DNA of 64,000 bases from Solirubrobacter phytolaccae (GTDB taxonomy: Bacteria > Actinomycetota > Thermoleophilia > Solirubrobacterales > Solirubrobacteraceae): assembly GCF_027587195.1 (NCBI RefSeq), contig NZ_JAPDDP010000011.1, forward strand, positions 62,001 to 126,000, given 5' to 3'. Position numbers and translations under genes: made by a program. The notes below the pieces were generated by a model, which had not been told where the DNA came from, ran no database searches, and saw only the letters and a list, made by a program, of their open reading frames with translations. Below, piece by piece: positions 17,610 through 26,774 of this stretch. Position 1 is the stretch's first letter; each line of letters begins with the position of its first letter.

Positions 17610-20600
17610 TCAGGGATTGACCGGACGGTTCATATCCGTACCGATTTCCGCAGGGGTGAGCGCACGGTTGTACACGCGGACCTCGTCGATGAGGCCGTTG
17701 AACCACCCGTTGCGGACGCTGTCGCCGCCGATCCGCAGCTGGCCGGCGCTCGTCACGAGCGGGGCGGGCGCGGCCTGCGAGCCGACCTGCGCCCCGTCCA
17801 CGAACGTCTTCAGCGTCGCGCCGTCCCAGGTCATCGTGAGATGCGCCCAGGTGCTCAGCGGCAGCCCGGCGGGGGCCGGAGCGCCGAGCTCGGCGGTCGT
17901 GAAGATGTGCCCCGCGGGCACGTTGGCGTCGGTGTTGGCGAACAGCGCGTACGCGAGCGAGCCGACCTGCTCCTTGAGGATCACGGAGCGCCACGAGTTG
18001 AGCGTCGTCGGCTTGATCCACGCCTCGAGCGTCATCCCGGCGGTCAGGTTCAGCGCCGGGGCGTGGGGGACGCCGACGACGCTGTTGGTGCCGTTGAAGG
18101 ACAGCGCCCGCCCGAAGCGGCCGTCGACGACGCGGGTCGCGTTGGCGATCGTGCCGTCGTTGTGGTTGACCGTGTCGGTCGCCGTGGCGCCCGTGGTCTC
18201 GTCGAAGCCGTAGGCGGCCACGAGCCCGGTGTTGTGCACCTCGACGGCGACCGCCGTCGACGTGCGCGTGTTGCCGGACGCGTCACGGGCCACGGCGGTC
18301 AGCGTGTGCCGGCCGTCGCCCACCGTCGTCGTGTCCCACTGGTAGGCGTACGGCGCGGTGGTGTCGGGATCGCCCAGCGCCTGCCCGTTGCGCATGAACT
18401 GGACGGAGGCGACACCGACCGCGTCGGTGGACGTCGCCGTCACCGCGACCGTCGCGGCCAGGCTCGCGCCGTTGGCCGGAGCGGTCAGCGACACCGTCGG
18501 CGCCGTCGTGTCACCGGCGACCGTCACCTGTGCGCGCGGCGACGCGGAGCTGCGGTTGCCCGCGGCGTCGACCGCCTCCACGCGGTAGTGGTACGTGCCG
18601 GCCGGGACGCCGCTGTCGGTGTAGGTCGTGCCGCTGGGGACGCGCGCGATCCGGTTCGCCGCCGAAGGCGTGAAGGACGAGCTCGTCGAGCGGTACACGC
18701 GGTACTCCTTGACGCCCACGTTGTCCGTCGAGGCCGGCCAGTCCAGCTTGGCCCCGTCGGCGCGCGTCGTCGGCGTCAGCGAGGAGGGTGCCGAAGGCGG
18801 CACGGCGTCGGTCGTGGAGTCCAGGCGCATGATCCGCGACACCGACGGCACGCCGTTCTTGACGACGAACAGCATGTACCAGCCGGGCGGCGCCACGTTG
18901 GCGTTGGCCGGGCCGGTGATGCGCAGGCCGTCGCCCTGGACCGAGGACGTGAGCGGGATGAGCCGCTGGTCCATGTCCAGGTTGTGGGTCACGGCGCCCA
19001 TGCGGATCAGGTGCACCTTCTCGATGCCGGCCGCGTCGGGCGTGTCGATGTTGAAGTTCGCGCCGTAGTGGATCTCGTCCGGCGCCGCGCTGATCTGCGG
19101 GCGCGGGCCCTTGAACAGGTACGGCGGGGAGTAGATCTCGCCGCTGTTCTCGTTCTTGGCGTTGCCGAACGCCCCGCCGCCGGCCAGCAGCACGCGGCCG
19201 TCGGGCAGCAGCAGCGCCGACGAGTGGTACAGGCGCGGGCGGCGGCTGGAGGCGCCGACCGTCCACGTGTTCGTCTCCGGATCCCAGATCTCGGACGCGA
19301 GGATGCCCGTGGTCTCGTCCACGCCGTCGGTGCCGTTCTGGCCGCCGGTCGCGAGGACCTTGCCGTCCGGGAGCACGGTGAGCGTGTGGTAGGAGCGCTT
19401 GTAGTTCATCGGCGCGACTTCCTGCCACGCGGGCGTGGGCTGCGTGAAGTCGATCGCCGCGGCGCGGGCGCTGACGCTGCCGCCCGGGAACTCGGGCTCG
19501 GACCACGTGCCGGACTTGAGGATCTTGCCCGGGCGGTACATGACCGCGCTGTGGCCGTCGATCGGGCTCTCACCCACGGTCGTCCACTGGCCCGTCGTCG
19601 TGTCGAGCGTCCGCGTCGTCTTGTCCGGACCGGCGTCGAACACCTTGCCGTTCGGCAGCACGAACATGAACGGGTACAGCGGCATCCAGCGCTGGGCGGC
19701 GGGCAGCTCCTGCCACGTGTCCGTGGCCGGGTTGTAGATCTCCGGCAGCGTGTTGGACGCGATCGTCAGCGGCACCGGCTGGTTCTGGCGGTTGAGCACC
19801 GCGTTGTCGCCGGAGACCACGAGCACGCGACCGTCCGGCAGCGTCGTCGCGGTGGGGTACCAGCGTGCCACGGACATGTCCGCACCTCGAGCCCAGGTCT
19901 TGGAGACCGGGTTGAAGAGGTTCGTGTCCTTCAGGCCCTCGTACGCGTTGATGTGGCCACCGACGACCAGCAGGCGCCCGTCCGTCAGCGTGATGTGGCC
20001 GGCGCAGAACAGGTTGCGGCCGCTGGGGACCGACTCGAACTGCTTCGTCCACGGGTCCCACGTGTGCTCGCTGTTGAGCGCGGCTTCGAAGCCGTCCCAG
20101 GCCGCGACCTTGCCGTTGGAGAGCAGCGCCAGGTGGACCGGCACGATCGGCCACTCCATCGGCTTGGCGAACTCGCCGATCTGGTCCGTGCGCAGCGACT
20201 CCGGCGGCTCGGGCGTGCCCGCGACCACCGGCCGCGCCATGTCGTCCTTGAGCTCGGCGGCGCTGAGCGGGCGGTTGTAGATGCGGATCTCGTCGATCAG
20301 GCCCTTGAAGTGCTCGCCCCAGACGTTGTTGGCGCCGAAGGTGAGCGCGCCGCCCGCGTCCGGCAGGCTGCCGGTGGCGGCCTTCGACGCGATCTGCGTG
20401 CCGTTCGCGAACAGGCGCATGATGTTGCCGTCGTAGGTGGCCGCGAGGTGCGTCCAGTGGTTCGGGTCGAGCTCCTCGTCGCCGTTGACGATCATCTCGC
20501 CGTCCGGCAGCGCGAGGTGCGCGCTGGCCGTGTCGGCGGTGTTGTTGGCGTACAGCGACCAGCCGAGGCTGCCGGCCTCGCGGAAGATGATCGTCCGCCA

Positions 20601-26774: not shown

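Follow-up and report, generated by a model that had tools for sequence, protein, structure and literature searches.

A secreted giant protein of Solirubrobacter phytolaccae joins a predicted copper-radical oxidase to a deacetylase-like module

We found that a single gene of the soil-type actinobacterium Solirubrobacter phytolaccae encodes a secreted protein of 3,054 residues in which a predicted copper-radical oxidase shares one chain with a deacetylase-like module. The gene lies in a polysaccharide cluster within the 64,000-nucleotide stretch of DNA that we analyzed (the window). Since the fusion is also present in the corresponding cluster of a second species, it looks like a real and unusual tool for finishing the cell's sugar coat. 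Our preferred reading, to which we assign a probability of roughly 0.6, is that the protein is secreted and modular, finishes the polysaccharide made by a Wzx/Wzy-type exopolysaccharide cluster, and has both predicted activities. The enzyme types are known; their conserved combination in one secreted chain is new, and a literature search for described deacetylase/galactose-oxidase fusions returned nothing relevant. Few actinobacterial enzymes of glycan deposition are known, copper-radical oxidases among them, and little is known of what these oxidases act on in nature. An oxidase that is tied to a cluster and shares its chain with a deacetylase-type module offers a defined polymer to test.

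The gene, its domains, and the surrounding cluster

The open reading frame runs through 3,054 codons of the minus strand without a stop, with Met20 as an alternative start. Hydrophobicity over the whole chain gave no second membrane segment and no C-terminal anchor beyond the signal peptide. The Pfam search proposed in an earlier, sequence-only reading of this DNA recovered the two DUF4082 (6e-92) and two LamG domains that it had named, together with the oxidase domains (galactose-oxidase E-set, PF09118; Kelch; Glyoxal_oxid_N). That reading had lacked the two Big_5 domains, the fn3 and Big_7 domains, four Ig-like repeats, a conserved unnamed block, and the minus-strand orientation. The features are as follows.

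17610..26774 (-), whole gene, 3,054-aa secreted multidomain protein (ATG start, Pfam domains, GC3 0.98)
26619..26717 (-), Sec-type signal peptide, residues about 20-52, PRRLRAH...LLIAVLTLTS...ANA/Q (sequence; hydrophobic peak at residue 30)
26151..26615 (-), DUF4082 copy 1, about 54-208 (Pfam; domain mapping on family chains)
25809..26135 (-), Big_5 Ig-like domain copy 1, about 214-322 (Pfam; domain mapping on family chains)
25344..25769 (-), DUF4082 copy 2, 336-477 (Pfam)
24990..25313 (-), Big_5 copy 2, 488-595 (Pfam)
24231..24959 (-), ThuA/GATase1-like alpha/beta domain of the deacetylase-like module, about 606-848 (AlphaFold model; ThuA 1t0b, Z 16.6; Agd3 6nwz)
23445..24203 (-), deacetylase-like (beta/alpha) barrel, about 858-1110 (alignment, AlphaFold model, structure matches)
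23214..23441 (-), C-terminal beta-sandwich of the module, about 1112-1187 (model strands 513-586; Agd3 aligned to 803)
22962..23192 (-), fn3 domain, 1195-1271 (Pfam)
21975..22934 (-), unnamed block, 1281-1600 (recurs beside the deacetylase-like module in many phyla)
20745..21974 (-), four Ig-like repeats, 1601-2010 (sequence; present also in L039)
20250..20702 (-), LamG copy 1, 2025-2175 (Pfam)
18819..20189 (-), copper-radical oxidase, Kelch propeller and E-set, about 2196-2652 (Pfam, PDB phmmer, AlphaFold model)
18294..18500 (-), Big_7 Ig domain, 2759-2827 (Pfam)
17640..18227 (-), LamG copy 2, about 2850-3045 (Pfam; domain mapping on family chains)

The 320-residue block at 1281-1600 had no Pfam match; in relatives it occurs in up to several copies per chain (e.g., L077).

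Because the frame has PDB phmmer matches and a GC3 of 0.98, and because a second genome carries the whole fusion, the giant reading frame is not a product of chance. Long opposite-strand frames do exist in this 72% GC DNA, but it is the minus frame that carries the protein families, and a wrong-strand artifact was rejected. Mis-assembly joining two genes was ruled out because the second genome, a Thermoleophilaceae MAG (L039/G040), retains the entire fusion. Its protein of 3,506 residues has the same domain order and is 61% identical to the window protein over about 2,795 residues (67% for the module, 71% for the oxidase). The G040 cluster also holds a stand-alone copy of the deacetylase-like module. 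In a genome of the same genus (G063), a protein of 1,474 residues consists of only the LamG-oxidase-fn3-LamG half. The giant thus reads as two pre-existing modular proteins that were joined end to end and then kept.

The surrounding genes point to the synthesis and export of a polysaccharide.

2497..9105 (+), second giant secreted protein, 2,202 aa: glucose/sorbosone dehydrogenase (GSDH), PKD, BACON, three LamG
9201..10409 (+), UDP-GlcNAc 2-epimerase WecB (profile score above cut-off)
39314..40843 (-), Wzy/O-antigen-ligase-type polymerase (family match; syntenic in G040)
47890..49350 (+), polysaccharide exporter, Polysacc_synt_3, Wzx type (family match)

With the GSDH giant and the oxidase fusion, the cluster encodes two giant secreted oxidoreductases. 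It also contains a sugar transferase and an NDP-sugar dehydrogenase. Since WecB and this dehydrogenase both score above their cut-offs, the locus polymer plausibly contains an N-acetylated amino sugar, and the neighborhood makes that polymer a plausible substrate of the giant protein. Synteny with G040 extends to an AsnB-like protein (69% identity), glycosyltransferases (60-73%), the polymerase (60%), and the GSDH giant (55%). The fusion gene has as its neighbor a gene for a 382-aa protein (26875-28023, minus strand) that had no family match and is 60% identical to one in the same place in G040. Secreted LamG/fn3/Ig/beta-helix proteins are also encoded in the cluster, at 30418-32223, 33622-36993, 37149-39344, and 50095-52272 (+), three of the four with LamG.

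The copper-radical oxidase and its likely chemistry

The region at about 2196-2652 is predicted to be a full AA5-type copper-radical oxidase. The sequence-only reading had proposed an oxidase with a complete ligand set, and this was borne out by alignment to GlxA and galactose oxidase, by conservation in the order, and by the modeled fold. All five residues that it had named (C2257, Y2306, Y2516, H2517, and H2597) are in the translated frame where it had placed them.

20004..20006 (-), Cys2257, Tyr-Cys cofactor partner (sequence, alignment)
19857..19862 (-), Trp2305-Tyr2306, second-sphere Trp and Cys-linked Tyr, GlxA W288-Y289 pattern (alignment)
19224..19229 (-), Tyr2516-His2517, axial Tyr and first His copper ligand (alignment)
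18984..18986 (-), His2597, second His copper ligand, in the E-set (alignment)

A PDB phmmer search with residues 2190-2655 gave GlxA as the best match (3e-56), followed by a bacterial galactose oxidase (4e-56) and 1gof (5e-45). In the alignment to 4unm and 9g8h, C2257, the sole Cys of the domain, falls on GlxA C121, W2305-Y2306 on W288-Y289, Y2516-H2517 on the GlxA Tyr-His pair, and H2597 on the distal His. GlxA numbering here is chain position plus 30, in agreement with the solved W288A mutant (5lqi). Thus the Cys-Tyr cofactor pair, the Tyr-His, and the distal His of AA5 are at homologous positions, and both Pfam and structure matching gave the seven-bladed Kelch propeller with a C-terminal E-set that characterizes the family. 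Alignment and fold therefore agree on the correspondence of the named residues to the family ligands, a point on which the earlier reading had said it could be refuted. Its claim of spacing close to the fungal enzyme also held: the intervals of 49 (Cys to Tyr), 210 (Tyr to Tyr), and 80 (His to His) are near those of fungal galactose oxidase (C228/Y272/Y495/H496/H581). They are likewise near those of the aldehyde oxidase FgrAldOx (C450/Y510/Y738/H739/H826; PMC13094651).

An AlphaFold model of the domain, built from only four sequences, had a pLDDT of 79.6 and a pTM of 0.86. It matched the solved copper-radical oxidases listed with Z scores of 40 to 47 (46.8 for the bacterial galactose oxidase, 45.2-45.5 for GlxA, and 44.6 for 1gof), while the next best fold scored 23. 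Among 19 aligned sequences from the order, including that of the window, the Trp, both Tyr, and both His residues are kept in 19 of 19, and the Cys in 17 of 18, one sequence not covering the Cys site. The homolog L017 has Ala at the cofactor Cys site with all copper ligands retained. A catalytically dead Kelch lectin was ruled out for the window domain, whose ligands are all present and conserved. Other genomes of the order commonly encode copper-radical oxidases as stand-alone proteins, and homologs with 33-36% identity (L116-L118) were found on IMG/VR contigs classed as viral.

The second sphere bears on the chemistry. W2305 directly precedes the Cys-linked Tyr in all 19 order homologs. None of them has an aromatic residue at the positions aligned with W290 of galactose oxidase (Asn/Ala in the window), as read from a gapped alignment and not from geometry. 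Consecutive Trp and Tyr (W509-Y510) are found at the cofactor of FgrAldOx, an AA5_1 aldehyde oxidase, and the Trp of GlxA occupies the same flipped place as in AA5_1, whereas that of galactose oxidase comes from another loop (PMC13094651). Given the W2305-Y2306 pattern of GlxA and AA5_1 and the lack of a W290 equivalent, aldehyde/glyoxal-type chemistry is predicted to be likelier than galactose oxidation. For the same reasons, direct oxidation of the polymer's alcohol groups is less likely than the sequence-only reading implied. The domain scored 255 bits against the GlxA orthologue profile NF052501, whose curated cut-off is 800 bits, and by this measure we judge that it is not a GlxA orthologue.

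Fold, putative active site, and distribution of the deacetylase-like module

Whole-protein scans gave no significant Pfam or NCBIfam assignment to residues 600-1190. Across module members there were weak matches to ThuA and DUF4350 and rare ones to Polysacc_deac_1; the CE4 profile (PF01522) matched 2 of 73 members (best, 0.0014), the window member not among them. A PDB profile search with a four-row module alignment found no sequence up to an E value of 10. A model from 73 sequences (pLDDT 94.1, pTM 0.94) contains an alpha/beta/alpha domain, a deacetylase barrel, and a beta-sandwich in the order that defines CE18. By far the longest alignment among the solved structures listed was to Agd3 (6nwz), which spans all three domains (464 residues, model 7..589 to Agd3 146..803; Z 17.4), and the rmsd of 9.7 indicates that their placement differs. 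The barrel alone matched the deacetylases 3rxz (Z 17.9), PgdA 3qbu (17.2), and 8t0j, and the first domain matched ThuA proteins (1t0b, Z 16.6). NDST1 (8cd0) was among the Foldseek matches of the module (2.6e-5); PelA was not among the structure matches listed, which we do not count against a relation. The earlier description of this region as ThuA-like and deacetylase-like was therefore right at the level of fold.

The conserved barrel residues are D872, D873, H874, H932, R970, H972, H1072, and D1074. Across 78 sequences, D872, H932, and R970 are invariant, and H874, H972, H1072, and D1074 are nearly so (99-100%). The Asp-Asp pair of CM1 is present, judged by its place where the first barrel strand ends (D872 in 100% and D873 in 87% of the 78). 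R970 and H1072 are candidates for the CM3 Arg and CM4 His. However, the HxxxH shared by CE18 CM2 and CE4 motif 2 is incomplete: H932 is invariant, and the residue at +4 is S936 in the window and Asn, Gly, or Ser in most of the family. A profile comparison with the relatives' CE4 enzymes placed H932 on the first His of HxxxH, a weak hint (31 columns, P = 0.0027, probability 11). The second His is essential in Agd3 (H514; PMC7229062), and its absence leaves deacetylase activity of the module uncertain. Either H874 or H972 would substitute for the missing metal His, or the module would not be a classical deacetylase. C937 and C973, conserved beside H932 and H972, may form a disulfide.

In a pattern-based scan of 84,980 species, the module was found at 77 loci in Chloroflexota, Cyanobacteria, Bacteroidota, Acidobacteriota, Burkholderiales, Nocardioides, Actinoplanes, and others. 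It occurs in 3 of 151 genomes of the order (the same three among 299 of the class). Domain mapping on about 75 chains showed that it almost always adjoins Big_5 and DUF4082. The only other of these chains with an oxidase is L039, some chains being cut by contig or locus ends. About 33 of the 75 carry an N,N-dimethylformamidase-beta-like domain (PF20254, DMFA2_C), so that two putative amide hydrolases repeatedly share a chain. One chain (L107) has two tandem module copies, 34-37% identical to the window module. Polysaccharide genes, recognized by similarity to window genes, occur in the fetched flanks of about 16 of some 75 loci elsewhere, a modest, uncontrolled association. This family of about 590 residues, Agd3/NDST-like with an altered metal motif, appears to be widespread, unnamed, and undescribed. 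Its members come from dozens of species, ranging from cyanobacteria to Bacteroidota, and the libraries searched have no model for it; it could represent a new family of esterases whose metal site is altered.

Proposed function and comparison with known systems

In our proposal, the LamG, DUF4082, and Ig-like domains would hold the giant protein on the cell-surface glycan. Copper(II) would be bound by Y2306, Y2516, H2517, and H2597, with the C2257-Y2306 thioether radical cofactor stacked under W2305. The oxidase would take two electrons from its substrate and reduce O2 to H2O2, the substrate probably being aldehydes or sugar ends of the GlxA/glyoxal-oxidase type rather than galactose C6. The Agd3/NDST1-like module would probably remove acetyl groups from amino sugars of the locus through a rearranged metal site. 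The two activities might be coupled, but most species have the module without any oxidase, so the halves need not cooperate.

We think it unlikely that the oxidase serves mainly as an H2O2 source, acting on small aldehydes for a partner peroxidase or surface defense and leaving the polymer unmodified. The glyoxal/aldehyde-oxidase pattern of its second sphere would fit this, but LamG domains flank the oxidase, its place in a polysaccharide cluster is conserved, and GlxA itself is required for glycan deposition, according to the title of Chaplin 2015 as cited in PMC13094651. We consider it rather improbable that the oxidase is the only enzyme, with the deacetylase-like module a nonhydrolytic carbohydrate-binding scaffold alongside the DUF4082, LamG, and Ig domains. 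The missing metal His would be explained, and in Agd3 the ThuA-like domain serves for binding (PMC7229062); conservation of seven putative active-site residues (D872, H874, H932, R970, H972, H1072, and D1074) at 99-100% across phyla is hard to reconcile with a pure binder. Action on foreign soil glycans, as in nutrient acquisition or the degradation of plant or fungal polymers, would make the cluster a matter of location only. LamG and DUF4082 are generic and stand-alone oxidases are common in other genomes of the order, but two families of that order have kept the same arrangement of the cluster, and we regard this explanation as decidedly improbable.

The preferred reading, a polysaccharide-finishing protein, retains much of the sequence-only proposal that one protein binds, deacetylates, and oxidizes the locus polymer, which remains plausible. 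The ligands, fold, deacetylase-type module, signal peptide, and syntenic locus speak for it; the missing second His of HxxxH makes the deacetylation uncertain, and direct oxidation of alcohol groups is the less likely part.

Among known systems, GlxA of Streptomyces lividans/coelicolor (SCO2837, PDB 4unm) resembles the window oxidase in its Kelch and E-set domains, copper ligands, Cys-Tyr pair, and adjacent W288-Y289. In contrast, its Cys and Tyr are 168 residues apart, owing to a long insert, rather than 49; the window oxidase is embedded in a 3,054-aa chain; and no CslA gene is among the identified window genes. The AA5_2 galactose oxidases (Fusarium 1gof, Pseudoarthrobacter 9g43) share fold, first-shell ligands, and spacing, but the window enzyme lacks W290 (N2324/A2325 region) and has RWYP in place of RGYQ. 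The fungal AA5_1 enzyme FgrAldOx (9n3u) shares the consecutive Trp-Tyr and the first-shell ligands, with lower overall similarity (Z 40.4, 25% identity). For the module, Agd3 (CE18, Aspergillus, 6nwz) offers the same three-domain plan, Asp-Asp pair, and a link to polysaccharide clusters, with R970 and H1072 as candidate counterparts of its Arg and late His; the window module differs in lacking the second HxxxH His, in domain placement, and in having no detectable sequence relation. NDST1 (8cd0) and PelA (CE21) likewise set an alpha/beta domain beside a metal-deacetylase barrel. Unlike the window protein, both retain the His-x3-His-Asp triad (PMC10864358, PMC12022489), and neither is fused to a copper oxidase.
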